From Candidatus Woesearchaeota archaeon (GTDB lineage: Archaea; Nanobdellota; Nanobdellia; Woesearchaeales; DSVV01), in the NCBI GenBank assembly GCA_016214075.1, contig JACRPI010000043.1:1-64000 (forward strand): a DNA stretch of 64,000 nucleotides. The letters run 5' to 3'. The notes beneath the pieces were generated by a model that saw only the letters and a list, made by a program, of their open reading frames with translations, was not told the DNA's origin and searched no databases. The position numbers and the translations under genes were made by a program. Shown here one piece after another: positions 57,158 through 64,000 of this stretch; position 1 is the first letter of the stretch, and each line of letters opens with the position of its first letter.

Positions 57158-57706
57158 CTAATGCCCTTTTTCTCCCTTGTCAAAACTCTTATGCTTGTGC
57201 GACAAATAATTCGCGACAGCGATCAGCACAATACCAATAGAAAGGTATAATAAACTTAATGGCGTGTCAAAATGCAACACAACAGCGCTCTTAAAGAAAT
57301 ACACCATTAATATGATGATAATGACTTTGGTCAAGACCGCTTTCAAGTCATCAAGAGAATGAAATGTTAACCAATTAGGATACGGAATCTCTTCTCCTTT
57401 AAGCGTATCAATTTTGCTAATAAACAATTCATAAACTCCAAGCGCAATAATGATAAGAATAATGCCGAGCAAAAACTCATCAAGAGAGGAAATCAAATAG
57501 ACAACGATAAGATTAGAAGGAACTGTTTCTCCATGGCTAAACGCAGCAGACAATTCGTGATACGCCTCATACGTGCTGTAAATTCCAAGAACAAACGCGA
57601 TAAGAGAAGAAATTAATAATGCAAGGACAACAATAATAATGACATACCTAAATTTCCAAAGCCCATTCTCAAAGATTTTTTCAACAGTTGACGCGCCACT
57701 TTTCAT
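57158..57706 (-). CDS. UPF0114 (YqhA-like) membrane protein
   Basis: 182 aa with four hydrophobic segments (about 20-45, 65-90, 120-142, 147-165). The segment SSLDEFLLGIILIIIALGVY is the family signature (acidic pair inside helix 2). Function of the family is not established; a channel or transporter role has been proposed. The last gene of the minus-strand group, 40 bp after the lipoprotein gene, and may be read from the same message. Confidence 0.85.
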   Translation of the reverse strand: MKSGASTVEKIFENGLWKFRYVIIIVVLALLISSLIAFVLGIYSTYEAYHELSAAFSHGETVPSNLIVVYLISSLDEFLLGIILIIIALGVYELFISKIDTLKGEEIPYPNWLTFHSLDDLKAVLTKVIIIILMVYFFKSAVVLHFDTPLSLLYLSIGIVLIAVANYLSHKHKSFDKGEKGH

Positions 57707-57746: not shown

Positions 57747-58667
57747 TTAATCCAATTCAGGATTTTCCTTGATTCTAACTCGCGTTGAAGCCAAGTCTTG
57801 ATAATAATATGTTAAGGTAATATCGACTTGCGCAGTGTATAACGCGTCTTCTTCAAGACTATCACTGATGCAGATAATCGTTGTTTCTGCTGCGCCACTG
57901 CTTCCTGTAGCAGTTGCGCGTGCCATGCGAGCGACAGAAGGATCTCCTCGTGATGTACATTCCATACCTGCTGTTTCTACTTCAAAACTAATAGTGTCGT
58001 AGATTGCGGAGAAATCGTCACCAAGATATGCTTTGCTGCGTCCTTGTCCTGCGTTATAAATAGGGATTTCTAAGTAAATTCTACCGCTGCCATATGGTTT
58101 TTCCACAACAGAGCCAATCTGAATTGGACCACCTGATGCATAAGCTGTTTGTGAAGAACTAACATCACAAACACGTTCATCACGAAGATCTTCTTTAAAG
58201 CAGACTTTTGGAATAGACACATACGTTTGGTAAGGATAGGTATATTCAAGATAAATGTTTGCGTCATAAAATGTTCCAGTTAATCCTTCATAAACAGCGT
58301 CACCAAAACTAACACGTTCATAGCCGCCATCAGGAAGATACTCAGAAACTTTAGTGAGTTCCTCAGCATTCGTTTTTTCAAAATCAACACCAGAAAAATC
58401 ATTTTCTGAAATACCGCGAATTTTTAATTCAACTTCATTCGGTTGAATAGTGAATTCTCCACTGTTTTGGAGAAGTGCGACAATAGGGAATGCTTCATCT
58501 TCATAAACTTCATTACCGACGCCAAAATCTTCGAAAGAAAGAACTAAACCATAAGAACCACCAAGCCAAACACTTTGGACAGATTCAGATCCTGCTTGTT
58601 GTCCGCATCCTGCAAGAAGCAGTGCGAGAATAACGCCAAACACTAAGAGCAATCGATGAATGTTCAT
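57747..58667 (-). CDS. Surface lipoprotein, envelope-cluster paralogue 4
   Basis: 306 aa. Signal peptide with lipobox LLAG-C (Cys21). Three beta-rich parts shared with the other cluster proteins: domain 1 GLVLSFEDFG with VYEDEAFPI and LLQNSG; domain 2 starting GGPIQIG and ending IPIYNAGQG; domain 3 ICISDSLEED then YTAQVDITLTYYYQD. Six or so Cys could pair outside the cell. It is the simplest member, with nothing beyond the shared plan. Separated from the upstream lipoprotein gene by 365 bp of repeats. Confidence 0.82.
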   Translation of the reverse strand: MNIHRLLLVFGVILALLLAGCGQQAGSESVQSVWLGGSYGLVLSFEDFGVGNEVYEDEAFPIVALLQNSGEFTIQPNEVELKIRGISENDFSGVDFEKTNAEELTKVSEYLPDGGYERVSFGDAVYEGLTGTFYDANIYLEYTYPYQTYVSIPKVCFKEDLRDERVCDVSSSQTAYASGGPIQIGSVVEKPYGSGRIYLEIPIYNAGQGRSKAYLGDDFSAIYDTISFEVETAGMECTSRGDPSVARMARATATGSSGAAETTIICISDSLEEDALYTAQVDITLTYYYQDLASTRVRIKENPELD

Positions 58668-58758
58668 GAAAATCCCTCCTGAAACGACAAACTATACAAT
58701 ATAAGCTACTTTCCCACAAAACGAATATATAAACATTATGGTTTTGCGACGGAAGTAA

Positions 58759-58848
58759 CACAAACGCACCACTCGCTGCCATCCAAATCGCAGCAAGATG
58801 CAGAGTATTGCCGTAGTTTGGTGCGACTGTGGAATTATAAAATTAGGT
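58759..58848. repeat. Diverged copy of the 18269 hairpin element
   Basis: Starts CACAAACGCACCACTCGC and ends GGTGCGACTGTGGAATTATA then AAAATTAGGT. It keeps the order of blocks of 18269-18365, including CGCAGCAAG and GTATTGCC, with substitutions on both arms. It directly abuts the next repeat. The gap 58668-59032 consists mainly of these two elements. Confidence 0.75.
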
Positions 58849-58852
58849 CGAT

Positions 58853-58990
58853 GCAAAAAACAACAACATGGCCAGACGAAGCAAAATTTGCATTGCAAAT
58901 TTTGCGAAGTAGGACAAGCTTTTTGGCTAAACCAATGAGAAGAAAGCCAAAAAGTTGACCGTCTGTGCCAATGTTGTTGTTGTTTTTTGC
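58853..58990. repeat. ATGGCCAGACGAAGC hairpin element, copy A
   Basis: 138 bp with terminal inverted repeats GCAAAAAACAACAACATGGC and a matching right end. Conserved blocks ATGGCCAGACGAAGC, GCGAAGTAGG and GACCGTCTGTGCCA alternate with two variable stems (AAAATTTGCA/TGCAAATTTT and AGCTTTTTGGCT/AGCCAAAAAGT). Copy B lies at 60300-60424. Confidence 0.8.
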
Positions 58991-59032
58991 TTACGAACCA
59001 GAAAGAGTAATATAAAATCAAAAAACCATCAC

Positions 59033-60433
59033 CTAAGTAGAAACAATATTGCACCGCTCAGAAACAGTTCTTCCGTCACTGACTGTTCCATAAATAGAGA
59101 GTTTTTTAGGGACGGTAGATCCAGAAAATGGACAAGACGACGTTGGACTACTTGAATCACCACACTTTGTGACAGTAGAAGAGCCATGCACTTGATATTC
59201 GACCAACTCATCCGCTGCTGCAGAAACCTTGATTTCAGTTTCTCCCTCACTGCAGTAATACATTTTTCCACTGATATACAAACAAACGCAGCCTCCCCAT
59301 TTGTTCATGTTCGCTTCACTGCAATAGCAACCTGAACTTCCAGAACTCGAAGAACTTCCTGAAGAAGAACCTGAACCAGAATCTGTTGAAGAACGGGAAA
59401 CACCCTGCTCATATGCTTCTCGATCAGCAGTACTGCTGCTTTCATAAATGCCCATATCCTGGTCAATCACAGAAAGATACGAATAGTCGAGAGTAATTTT
59501 AAGCGGCGTTGTGTACGTGCGTTGTTCGCGAAGCGTGAACGTGCAGATAATAACACCTTGCCCAGCGTCGTTAAGCGCGATATAACCATTACTTGGAATA
59601 CAGCTTGGAACATCCAACCCATTAATTTCCAGACTAACGCCGACATGATCTAAATCAGCTTCAGTTAAACCAAAAGGACAAGCGTCAAACGCGTCAACGT
59701 CATACGCGTTGACCACAGTGCCATCGCCAACATGCTGCACAAAGACAGTAAAGCGAACTTTATCCTGTTCATAATCTTGGCGAACTTCAGTGACTGCGAC
59801 AGGTCCACCTTGAGAAGAAAGTCCAATAGTATCCTGATCGCAAATATACGTGTCCTCAGGACTATAAAGTAAACAAACTGTTGGAGTTGCAATAGATTGG
59901 TAGCTGTAACAAAGGCTTGCTTGCAATGTTGTTTCATACGATTCTCCAAGAGTGAGAGAAACAGGCGCTTCTTCTGCGACAGAAACAAAATATTGGTATC
60001 CTCCTGGGGCATAGATATTTTTACCGTAAAATTCTGCAGGAAGCTCAATTGGTTCTGTATCTAGTTTGACAATGGTAGGATCATATCCACTAAGAACCAC
60101 TTTTCCTTGCGGTTCATCGTATGCGCCTTTATTTTCTAAAACAAGTTGAAGATTCAAATATTGTTGATCATAAAAAACATAATCATCGTCGAGGAAAGAG
60201 AGAACAACTCCTTCTGTTCCAGTTCTGTATGCGTCTGCTTCTTGACTGCTGTAGAATGTTCCGCAAGAAGAGAGAAGAAGAGAAAAACAAAGTAATAAGA
60301 CAAAAAATAACAACATGGCCAGACGAAGCGAACGAGGTTGCCCTACGAAGTGGGGTGTTCTCGTTCGCGGAGTAGGGCGTGCGTCAGCACGACCGTCTGT
60401 GCCATCGTTGTTGTTATTTTTTGCTTTTATCAT
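59033..60433 (-). CDS. Surface lipoprotein, envelope-cluster paralogue 3, with a repeat-derived N-terminus
   Basis: 466 aa from the ATG at 60433 (GAGG 9 nt upstream). Residues 4-45 are encoded by a hairpin repeat element, which supplies a basic n-region and part of the hydrophobic core; the lipobox is LLSS-C (Cys57). Then come the shared parts: GVVLSFLDDDY with LVLENKG; GGPVAVTEV with VQHVGDG; and VICTFTLREQ with KITLDYSYL. After a Ser/Gly linker (about 350-370) is an extra Cys-rich domain (CYCSEANMNKWGGCVC) unique to this member. An alternative start within the repeat is the ATG at 60316, without a visible ribosome-binding site. Confidence 0.82.
   Translation of the reverse strand: MIKAKNNNNDGTDGRADARPTPRTRTPHFVGQPRSLRLAMLLFFVLLLCFSLLLSSCGTFYSSQEADAYRTGTEGVVLSFLDDDYVFYDQQYLNLQLVLENKGAYDEPQGKVVLSGYDPTIVKLDTEPIELPAEFYGKNIYAPGGYQYFVSVAEEAPVSLTLGESYETTLQASLCYSYQSIATPTVCLLYSPEDTYICDQDTIGLSSQGGPVAVTEVRQDYEQDKVRFTVFVQHVGDGTVVNAYDVDAFDACPFGLTEADLDHVGVSLEINGLDVPSCIPSNGYIALNDAGQGVIICTFTLREQRTYTTPLKITLDYSYLSVIDQDMGIYESSSTADREAYEQGVSRSSTDSGSGSSSGSSSSSGSSGCYCSEANMNKWGGCVCLYISGKMYYCSEGETEIKVSAAADELVEYQVHGSSTVTKCGDSSSPTSSCPFSGSTVPKKLSIYGTVSDGRTVSERCNIVST
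60300..60424. repeat. ATGGCCAGACGAAGC hairpin element, copy B, inside a gene
   Basis: 125 bp with the same conserved blocks as copy A and different variable stems (GAACGAG/CTCGTTC, CCCTAC/GTAGGG, GTGC/GCAC). Begins 9 bp after the A of the lipoprotein start codon and stays in frame with it. Confidence 0.82.
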
Positions 60434-60463
60434 AACATTTCCTCAAATAATAAATAATGCAAA

Positions 60464-61720
60464 CTAATACGTCACAATCTTCTCAATCGTCACAGGTACT
60501 GATTGCGATAAGGTGTAGCCATAATCAAATTGTATCGAAAGCTGCGTCATGTATGGCGCTTGCTCAATGGAAAACATATCCAAATCTTCAACAGCATCTT
60601 CATTGACAATACAAGTAATTTTATCATCATCGCCTTTTAAGGTGAGAGGATTTGGTGTGCAAGTAATTAAATCCCCATCATCGCCAGGGTTCAATTCTCG
60701 TCCTGTTGCAGGATCATACCCATTAAAGTCATACATCAAGTCTTCGCTGGAAAGCATGAAAGACTTCAAAAATACCATATTATAATCCTTCGATGCGAGT
60801 CCTGTTGCTGTGCATGCATGTTCTATCTTCTCTTTGTTAATGACTTTTCCGTTGCCGCTGTTCTGCACATGAATGATAAACATAGGGCGGATATATCCTG
60901 TTCCAGTAGGAATCATTTTGCTTTCAATCGATGTAATCGCAAGTGGTGCGCCCTGCCCGCTTAAACTCACATCAGTTGCTTCACATGCGCCAGGAAAAAT
61001 ATTCATTTTGTTGACATCCGTATCAATGCAAATATCTTGGTTCCATGTTGTTGTATATTCGTAACATGCAGTTGCGACAATTTCAATGTCATGAGTCTCA
61101 CTTAATGGACCAACAGTTTTTGCTTTTGCAGGATAAGAGAGCGTCGTCGTGCCGCCTTCATAATTAAAGATAGACTTACCTTCAAGAGAAAACCATTTTG
61201 TTTTGTACGGATTCGCGACAGCAGTGGTATCGCGCAAGCGTTCAATGTTCGTGCGTGCGTCTTGAATTTTTTGTTTAAGATCAACAGCAGTTTCAGCGTC
61301 CGCAGTTTTAAGCGCGAGCGTATACTCGTCAATTGCTGCGTTGTAATCTTCAATGTCATCTCGAACAGATAAACTGAGTTCATCTACAGCGTCAAAAGTA
61401 GAGCATTCGTTATCATCATCAACAAGACACATATAATCATCTTCGATAGAGAGCGTAATGAAACCAGTAAGCGTATGCGCGCCAGTGTTTTCTAGTTCAA
61501 GAGCAACAGTGAAAGGGGTGTCTTCATAAACAGTTTGTGAAGGATTTTCATCAAGGAAAGAAAAATCTAAGCCACTAGTTCCTTCCCAAAATGCTTCGTT
61601 GGAAGTATAAACTTTGGAAGTAGTCGTGCCGCAACTAGAAAGAAGAAGCAACGCAGAAAGAACAACAAGAATGCAAAGTGAAGAAAACTGTTTTGAAGAA
61701 AAGTGTTTCGCAGGAATCAT
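60464..61720 (-). CDS. Surface lipoprotein, envelope-cluster paralogue 2
   Basis: 418 aa. Lipobox LLSS-C (Cys30). Shared parts: GLDFSFLDENP with VYEDTPFTVALELENTG; GAPLAITSIESK with IHVQNSGNGKVIN; and ITCIVNEDAVED with MTQLSIQFDYGYTLSQ. An inserted acidic coiled-coil-like stretch at about 120-170 (DDIEDYNAAIDEYTLALK) is not in the other members. Start codon overlaps the stop of the upstream lysozyme-like gene (ATGA), so the two are translationally coupled. Confidence 0.85.
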   Translation of the reverse strand: MIPAKHFSSKQFSSLCILVVLSALLLLSSCGTTTSKVYTSNEAFWEGTSGLDFSFLDENPSQTVYEDTPFTVALELENTGAHTLTGFITLSIEDDYMCLVDDDNECSTFDAVDELSLSVRDDIEDYNAAIDEYTLALKTADAETAVDLKQKIQDARTNIERLRDTTAVANPYKTKWFSLEGKSIFNYEGGTTTLSYPAKAKTVGPLSETHDIEIVATACYEYTTTWNQDICIDTDVNKMNIFPGACEATDVSLSGQGAPLAITSIESKMIPTGTGYIRPMFIIHVQNSGNGKVINKEKIEHACTATGLASKDYNMVFLKSFMLSSEDLMYDFNGYDPATGRELNPGDDGDLITCTPNPLTLKGDDDKITCIVNEDAVEDLDMFSIEQAPYMTQLSIQFDYGYTLSQSVPVTIEKIVTY

Positions 61721-64000
61721 GATGTTGCTGCCTCCACTTGTTTTTCATTATTCCATTCTATTTGAATATTTGCATGCCCTTCACCAAGAGTAGATTCTTG
61801 TGTTTTCACATTACGAACAGTAAGACCAGGTATATCATCAGATGCGCAAGAACCAAACGCAATGTCTTCATACCATGAGATAGAACAAACCTCATCAAGA
61901 TCTGTAAGATCTTCTGGATTTGTCGCAACACTAAAGACAATATTGGAACCATCATATTCTACATAGAAGACATCAGGAACAAGCGCAGTAGGTTTATCTT
62001 CCAAAAGATAATCTGTGTTGAGAACAAAGTCCTCAAAGTATCTGTATTTGAAAAGAGAATTATCGCTGTCATAATATGCCTGAACAAAAGGGTATCCTTC
62101 AAACAACAACCATTGCGCATAGACAGGTGGTTTGACTGAATCGATCAGCTCCGTCATACCAGAAGCAGGGGTCGCATAGAAATAGACAGGCAATGCGCGA
62201 TCACCGCTACCCATAGAAAGCCAGAGTGTCCAGCTTCCAAAAGTGCCGAGCGTTGCATTGCTCGGAGTAAATCGTAAATAGTCTGGTTCATAAGTCACAG
62301 AGTCTTCTCTAAAGAAATCATCGGCATTACTTGTGGACTTCATCACGCTGTCAGTAAGTACAAGAGATTCGCAAAGATCAACATAATCCTGCACGCGTGT
62401 TGCGTAAAGCACAGCGTCTTCATTTGAAGAAGTGTCATCTGCTTGCGGAAGACGATAAATACCATAATAATATGCGCTATATGCATCGTCAGTATACCCA
62501 ACAGTTTCTGCGATATTCTTGAGATATGCCGCGCCAACATTGATATTCGTTTCAGCGTCATACAGATCATAAGTTTCATCAAGAGACGCCTGTGAGCTAA
62601 GTTGTTCTGCAAGCTGTTCAGTCACGCCCATTAATCCTGTTCGTTTATCAAGATAGTAATTATGGTCTCCTGAAGAAGTCTGCGCGATAATACCTGCAAG
62701 AGAACAGACAGGAGTGCCATACGTTGTTTGTGCGGCAAAGAGTTCATCGCCATAATTGTAAAATAAATATTGCAGCAATTCATCTTTTTCAGCGCTGGAA
62801 AAGGTAGGGGTGCTTCCTGTGGATTGACGAGCATCGCCAGAAGCACCAGATGGAGCGCTTTCTTCACGTTCAACAACAGTCACGCTCGTGTCATCGCTCA
62901 ACTGATAATCATATCGAGTTTTAACGTAGAAATAATGCGTCGAGATAGGCGTTGCGCCAAGTAAGCCAGAAACATCATCAATATTCAATCGACAGCTAAT
63001 CGTGATATAATCCTTGATGTCTTTGTATTCTGGTTTATCAACATCAAGAGTATATGCGTTATAACCTTCAAGTTGTGCAGTGCAAATTTCTTCAAGACAG
63101 CTCTCATCCCCGCCGCATTCCTGGCCGACTTTGCTGTTATATCCTTCTTCGCTTGCGATGCAATCATCAACAGTATACGTTGTCCAGTCATCATCTGTGC
63201 ATTGCGCAATGTCCAAACTTGTTTCTTCAGGAATAATCAAAACAACTTCATCGAGCGCAGCAATGACACCGCCCCATCCTTGCGAACCATCGAGCGTGAG
63301 CGCAAGGCGCGGCTTGACTGCGTAGGATTCGCTGATGCCAAGTAATGGTTCTTCAGGTCCCATTCCTATTGCGACAGGACCATTGGTGTAATGCGCGACA
63401 GGAGCCTGGTCTTGGATTTGGTATTCGTCGAGAAGATCGATACCTTGCCGTGTCGCTGCAGTAAGCGCGTCACGATCAGTGAAATAGCGTTTCAAATACC
63501 CAATAGTCTGGAAATTGAATTCCGCGGTATAAGTAATTTTATTTGTTCCTTCAGGAAGTTTTTCAAAGCTGCAATCCAATTCTTCTTGTTGCAAATTATA
63601 AATTTCAAACGAATCATCAGGGTAGACACTTCCGTTCATTCTGTTTTTCTCGCTTCCTGCGTAGCATGCGACACCAACAGTCACTGCGTCATCAAGCGTG
63701 CGCGCGAGGAGTGTTGCGTAGACAGTGACTGGTTCATTTTCTTCATATTCTGTTTTTGAAGCAGTAAGATCTTCTAAATAAACGCCGAGTTTTTCATTTT
63801 CGTTTTCTTCAACAACGCCGTAATAATATTCGCCTGTTGCTTGTTTCATGCGCATGCTAAAAATATCGCGCATGTTTCCAAAGCCACCAACAACGCCGTT
63901 CCAAAGCATACCCCAACCTTCCCATGCTTTGTCCCACATAAGCCCCGCTGCATACATTCGATCAGCGCCTGCAGTATCGAGTTCAATGTCGCTAAGTTCA
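61717..64000 (-). CDS. Large surface protein with lysozyme-like (SLT) domain, N-terminus outside the window
   Basis: At least 760 aa; the frame stays open to the window edge, upstream of the first in-window Met at 63957. Residues numbered from that Met: 50-370 follow the cluster plan (GVYLEDLTAS with YEENEPVTVYATL; NGPVAIGMGPEE; ITISCRLNIDD with VKTRYDYQL). Residues about 400-510 resemble a transglycosylase SLT domain: AGIIAQTSSGDHN, TGLMGVTEQLAEQL, ETNINVGAAYLKNI, AYYYG. The position of the catalytic Glu reads Thr in QTSSGD, so murein cleavage is unlikely, and archaea lack murein. A further beta-rich region follows. Four-nt overlap with the next gene. Confidence 0.75.
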   Translation of the reverse strand, partial: ELSDIELDTAGADRMYAAGLMWDKAWEGWGMLWNGVVGGFGNMRDIFSMRMKQATGEYYYGVVEENENEKLGVYLEDLTASKTEYEENEPVTVYATLLARTLDDAVTVGVACYAGSEKNRMNGSVYPDDSFEIYNLQQEELDCSFEKLPEGTNKITYTAEFNFQTIGYLKRYFTDRDALTAATRQGIDLLDEYQIQDQAPVAHYTNGPVAIGMGPEEPLLGISESYAVKPRLALTLDGSQGWGGVIAALDEVVLIIPEETSLDIAQCTDDDWTTYTVDDCIASEEGYNSKVGQECGGDESCLEEICTAQLEGYNAYTLDVDKPEYKDIKDYITISCRLNIDDVSGLLGATPISTHYFYVKTRYDYQLSDDTSVTVVEREESAPSGASGDARQSTGSTPTFSSAEKDELLQYLFYNYGDELFAAQTTYGTPVCSLAGIIAQTSSGDHNYYLDKRTGLMGVTEQLAEQLSSQASLDETYDLYDAETNINVGAAYLKNIAETVGYTDDAYSAYYYGIYRLPQADDTSSNEDAVLYATRVQDYVDLCESLVLTDSVMKSTSNADDFFREDSVTYEPDYLRFTPSNATLGTFGSWTLWLSMGSGDRALPVYFYATPASGMTELIDSVKPPVYAQWLLFEGYPFVQAYYDSDNSLFKYRYFEDFVLNTDYLLEDKPTALVPDVFYVEYDGSNIVFSVATNPEDLTDLDEVCSISWYEDIAFGSCASDDIPGLTVRNVKTQESTLGEGHANIQIEWNNEKQVEAATS

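Follow-up and report, generated by a model that had tools for sequence, protein, structure and literature searches.

Woesearchaeota are very small archaea believed to live at the expense of other microbes, and whether this highly diverse, uncultured group depends on bacteria is a question that has so far been addressed through single genes. Of relevance to this question is a run of envelope genes, one of them with a lysozyme-like domain, at the end of the window, i.e., the whole stretch of 64,000 nucleotides analyzed here (positions 1 to 64000 of a 123,831-base contig, in a genome of 1.62 Mb). An earlier note, made from the sequence of the window, had joined four of these genes into one cell-surface complex with a possible role in host contact, wall remodelling or secretion. 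The four genes do lie on the minus strand where the note had placed them, and the motif blocks that it had listed are present in all four translations. Its ATGA overlap at the first junction was also found, with the first gene (MEM in our working nomenclature) ending at 61717 and the first of three lipoprotein genes (LP1, LP2 and LP3) starting at 61720, and exactly the same 4-base overlap was seen in 25 of 60 related loci.

The MEM protein starts with an N-terminal stretch of about 130 amino acids, followed by four to five hydrophobic (membrane) helices, the ectodomain, the SLT domain and a C-terminal extension (Table 1). A lipobox was found on the lipoproteins, of which LP1 contains an acidic, helical insertion (at ~61217-61411) and LP2 a Ser/Cys-rich C-terminal add-on (~59036-59416) that, among the genomes aligned, was confined to the genus. 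The description as a four-gene cluster proved right in that the genes are kept together but fell one gene short, since a fifth gene, ANC, belongs to the cluster and is located upstream of MEM, outside the window. The outside part of ANC is beta-rich and its N-terminus is pilin-like: a class III-like motif ([KR][GAS][QDE]) precedes the helix in 42 of 51 ANC proteins, and the window genome encodes a Peptidase_A24 (prepilin peptidase), while a Pfam scan of ANC matched no pilin family. We infer from its sequence that ANC might be inserted into the membrane in a pilin-like manner. Near-matches to the NCBIfam families LytA and LptM were dismissed, being far under the cut-off and consisting mainly of signal-peptide sequence. 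Directly 3' of LP3, on the minus strand, the window encodes a UPF0114 membrane protein (57158-57706; Pfam, 87.9 bits), which was left out of the cluster because its adjacency is not kept in relatives.

Table 1. Features of the envelope gene cluster; positions are those of the window unless marked as contig positions
Feature	Position	Strand	Description
MEM	61717..64000; full contig 61717-64815 (start, contig position 64815; end, 61717)	-	1032 aa; window edge cuts gene
MEM ectodomain	62860..63867	-	two beta-sandwich domains; alignment and AlphaFold2 model (pLDDT 86.4, pTM 0.83)
SLT domain of MEM	62422..62736 (residues 694-798)	-	PF01464, 34.1 bits
LP1	60464..61720	-	lipoprotein; two-domain ectodomain plus insertion
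LP2	59033..60433	-	lipoprotein; two-domain ectodomain plus C-terminal add-on
LP3	57747..58667	-	lipoprotein; plain two-domain ectodomain; AlphaFold2 model (pLDDT 87.1, pTM 0.80)
ANC	contig 65277-67019 (beyond window)		upstream of MEM; 580 aa, one membrane helix

All four window proteins had been proposed to share a single three-part ectodomain. For the lipoproteins, the sharing extends over their full length: LP1, LP2 and LP3 are homologous from end to end (hhalign E values of 4e-73, 4e-40 and 2e-47) and, judging from sequence, clearly paralogues. The MEM ectodomain is more distant, with a weak hhalign match to LP1 and LP3 that covers the second half only (P of 34 to 78%, depending on the choice of columns) but was equalled by none of 40 column-shuffled controls for either pair; the profile comparison of MEM with LP2 did not rise above the background of such shuffles. 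AlphaFold2 models of the MEM ectodomain and of LP3, the one lipoprotein with which MEM was compared by structure, are alike, both predicting two beta-sandwich domains in tandem, each of which ends in a strand of exceptional length (25 to 26 residues). With a profile match that is weak but nonrandom and a modeled two-sandwich architecture that is the same, the MEM ectodomain is probably a distant relative of the lipoproteins, and the N-terminal regions do not appear to be unrelated folds. The blocks of the three-part scheme do exist, with their glycines, cysteines and Y-x-Y belonging to the positions at which relatives vary little or not at all, but the domains number two, with the second and third parts representing the start and the end of domain 2. 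ANC, on the other hand, was ruled out as kin of the other ectodomains (hhalign P, <1%). A comparison with PDB sequence profiles yielded no convincing relative, and Foldseek returned generic tandem-Ig matches only (integrin alpha, collagen adhesin, RbmA, complement), with TM scores of about 0.2 that are too low for the family to be named from fold searches; the results with a viral library were no clearer.

To what extent the cluster is conserved was read from genomes that are mostly or all metagenome assemblies (40 relatives, 288 genomes of the order and a phylum sample of 371, 243 of them good), with genes called by a simple longest-ORF rule and 64 distinct loci read. Among the relatives recovered, named organisms were almost all Candidatus Woesearchaeota. 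A single-protein search found a MEM homologue in 29 of the 40 relatives, a profile search found MEM in 215 of the 288 genomes of the order, and ANC was present in 280 genomes of the phylum sample (214 of the good ones). The order ANC-MEM-LP1-LP2-LP3 was collinear in each of the 60 loci where three or more members share a strand, in line with the note's expectation that other genomes would keep the genes together. The complete set of five was found in 42 of the 64 loci, contig ends cutting many of the rest, and LP2 and LP3 were absent or displaced at a few. The surroundings are stable as well, with a divergent pelota gene upstream at 41 of 49 loci and a convergent gene for the RFC small subunit downstream at 36 of 43. 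When pairwise distances are compared across the five proteins, they are correlated (r, 0.30 to 0.69; none of 200 permutations as high), as joint inheritance would predict. Other families of the class have a simpler cluster, made up of ANC, a short MEM that stops where the ectodomain ends and, as a rule, two lipoproteins. An origin as a phage-derived tail or lysis module was rejected, as none of 50,697 phage records was matched in a tblastn search with the MEM ectodomain and ANC.

While the five genes keep their order, the domains attached to MEM or LP1 are exchanged. Pfam families recognized on these tails were SLT, NlpC/P60, Glucosaminidase, Amidase_2 (N-acetylmuramoyl-L-alanine amidase), M23, M15_4 and DUF2272. 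Assigned one by one, at least one hydrolase add-on was present in 33 of 64 loci: SLT in 26 (24 on MEM and, at loci L052 and L104, 2 on LP1 instead), NlpC/P60 in 3, glucosaminidase in 2 and amidase, M23, M15 and DUF2272 in 1 each, DUF2272 (uncharacterized in Pfam) being counted solely for its position beside an SLT. Two hydrolase domains occur together at two loci, and the tails of L053 and L143, hydrolase-like by eye but without Pfam support, were scored as none. Along the MEM tree, some forks of which are open, the add-on label switches about 15 times (the least possible number being 8). Two loci of one genus, L045 and L109, have MEM proteins that are 41% and LP1 proteins that are 57% identical, with Amidase_2 and NlpC/P60 tips, respectively, and a single well-supported MEM clade combines M23, amidase, NlpC/P60 and one unrecognized tail. 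Hydrolase-free tails are, partly by visual judgment, Ig-like, fn3-like or Cys-rich, or there is no tail. A short Cys-rich segment that has DGC/GC-x-C at its core and is perhaps a docking linker follows the ectodomain in the MEM tails of L117, L120, L121, L126 and L137, which represent several families; in L137, an M15 peptidase lies behind it.

The scanned MEM and LP proteins contain no cell-wall-binding Pfam family. Additionally, SLT proteins are frequent elsewhere in these genomes, so that the cluster is not the sole carrier of murein hydrolases in these archaea but one among several. The window genome itself contains, on another contig (C11; L157:6093-7880), a 595-amino-acid protein with M23 and SLT domains amid genes with pilin-like N-termini, a run that by its gene content is a second, different surface locus with a hydrolase. 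On a further contig (C25), a 1229-amino-acid protein with a PG_binding_1 match (L158:2131-5820; 31.7 bits) adjoins a convergent SLT gene (L158:5837-6580).

Whether the lysozyme-like domain still cuts was judged from its catalytic residues. In the window, the Pfam match lies above the cut-off of 21.3 bits, but the catalytic Glu of the E-S motif is replaced by Thr (AQTSSG). This Glu is kept in 19 of the 26 cluster SLTs; all seven losses fall in the family of the window, covering its genus and most of the family. The window domain is, by its sequence, probably SLT-like rather than an active lytic transglycosylase and, since the Glu is lost, the window tip probably serves binding instead of cutting. 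Most SLTs of the order are plausible enzymes, and in the M23, M15, Amidase_2 and two NlpC/P60 tails, the zinc or nucleophile residues seem intact by eye.

The natural substrate of these hydrolase domains is bacterial murein, and one way to accommodate them would be to assume that they remodel the archaeon's own wall. We consider this highly improbable. A penicillin-binding transpeptidase domain was found in only 4 of the 40 relatives, and most of the 36 without it retain the cluster; Mur_ligase_M was mostly represented by a single match per genome, and the sole match in the window genome reads as a FolC-type synthase. Mur ligases together with transpeptidases, as an own wall would call for, were not found in the carriers as a group, and murein synthesis is not visible in the sequences of most of them. 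What speaks for an own wall is found in a few genomes. A single class A PBP is encoded by the window genome (L152:6963-9203, contig C19; Transgly, 3.6e-34; Transpeptidase, 1.5e-26), and a transpeptidase match is present in one (G001) of two genus mates searched. Unlike its relatives, another member of the order (G015; L159, contigs C2 and C7) encodes three Mur_ligase_M proteins, with E values down to 5e-52, possibly reflecting a murein-type pathway or contamination.

It could also be argued that there is no complex at all and that paralogous surface proteins, acting separately, are adjacent through common ancestry and low rearrangement. In such a stable housekeeping neighbourhood, gene order could indeed persist in this way, and LP2 and LP3 are absent or displaced at a few loci; however, the recurrent MEM-LP1 overlap, the single architecture of the MEM and LP ectodomains and the switching of SLT between MEM and LP1 make separate action improbable. 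The single complex that the earlier note had proposed gains from the fixed gene order, the overlap, the common architecture and the correlated divergence, with physical assembly of the proteins as the step that we infer. More serious is the suggestion that such a complex has a general envelope function (S-layer anchoring, cell shape or nutrient binding), with a core job unrelated to bacteria and with tips that either break down murein from the environment for food or represent incidental fusions. Its near-core distribution, the housekeeping surroundings and the versions without hydrolase in other families of the class would all fit, yet we regard it as unlikely, as the add-ons are strongly biased toward murein hydrolysis, come from unrelated folds and have been exchanged repeatedly, and as tails without hydrolase often resemble adhesion-type repeats.

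The reading that we favor, with somewhat more confidence than doubt, is that of an ancient envelope complex presenting interchangeable murein hydrolases to bacterial walls. The complex, shared by Woesearchaeota and related families of the class, would be composed of ANC, MEM and the three paralogous lipoproteins, its constant part serving as a cell-surface platform from which MEM and the lipoproteins face outward. The variable tip, mostly on MEM and sometimes on LP1, would be the working end that contacts a partner cell; where it is a hydrolase (about half of the loci read), it might open or loosen the bacterial wall where the cells touch, for feeding, attachment or killing, while Ig-like, fn3-like and Cys-rich tips, like the Glu-less SLT of the window, would be likelier to bind than to cut. 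Action on bacteria is suggested by the substrate of the domains and the scarcity of murein synthesis in their carriers; the assembly, its surface display, its target and its purpose all belong to the proposal, whereas the cluster, its homologies, the hydrolase swaps and the motif states were observed. The note's idea of host contact or wall remodelling thus takes a sharper form, with add-ons from many murein-hydrolase families in hosts mostly without murein synthesis, as far as tested, whereas nothing was found in favor of a role in secretion. Counting against the favored reading are the Glu-less SLT and the class A PBP of the window genome, the SLTs elsewhere and the lack of a recognized wall-binding domain. 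Since no hydrolase is recognized at about half of the loci and MEM outside the order stops at the ectodomain, cutting is probably not ancestral; these sequences suggest that the oldest job of the platform was a different one, with contact or binding as the simplest common denominator.

That a shared cluster carries different wall-cutting enzymes in different lineages points to a device used in common to contact or breach bacteria. We speculate, with a confidence falling a little short of even, that it represents a previously undescribed, order-wide contact machine, a five-protein platform whose tips are exchanged to match bacterial partners or prey, and that many Woesearchaeota are predators or episymbionts. 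If true, cells of two domains would be in contact through an apparatus of a new kind. With its constant platform and its exchangeable tips for wall cutting, the near-core locus offers a direct handle on the question of whether these archaea live on bacteria: the tip type predicts which wall bond is cut, and hence which assays and bacteria to test, and the locus designates proteins to be expressed, imaged and used in the prediction of complexes.

In the open-access literature, we found no description of the five-gene cluster or of its hydrolase exchange. Phage tail and conjugation machines likewise combine a conserved machine with a murein-hydrolase module swapped among SLT, M23, NlpC/P60 and similar domains; the cluster would work alike, with no sequence relation to phages found. 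Closer in lineage are the large extracellular murein-like lytic transglycosylases of Pacearchaeota and Woesearchaeota (fam00969; Castelle et al. 2021, PMC8204110) and the GH23 lytic transglycosylases of the same archaeal group (Vigneron et al. 2022, PMC9723730), in which, as here, Woesearchaeota proteins carry a lytic transglycosylase domain and some of which may be MEM proteins. The relevant sections of both accounts already propose bacterial-wall action, but for single transglycosylases, and do not describe a five-gene cluster, paralogous lipoproteins or SLT exchange. Finally, Woldo and Danwoldo are secreted modular archaeal peptidoglycan hydrolases (Strock et al. 2025, PMC12352652), with chimeric catalytic domains directed at bacterial murein, the target that we propose for the cluster, and the killing of bacteria by archaeal hydrolases was shown experimentally in a haloarchaeon (PMC12352652). 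MEM and the lipoproteins fall outside the definition of modular archaeal peptidoglycan hydrolases given there, because no wall-binding domain is recognized in them. Whereas Woldo and Danwoldo are single proteins that are secreted, contain a known wall-binding domain and occur patchily, the tip described here is carried by a membrane-anchored, near-core gene cluster.
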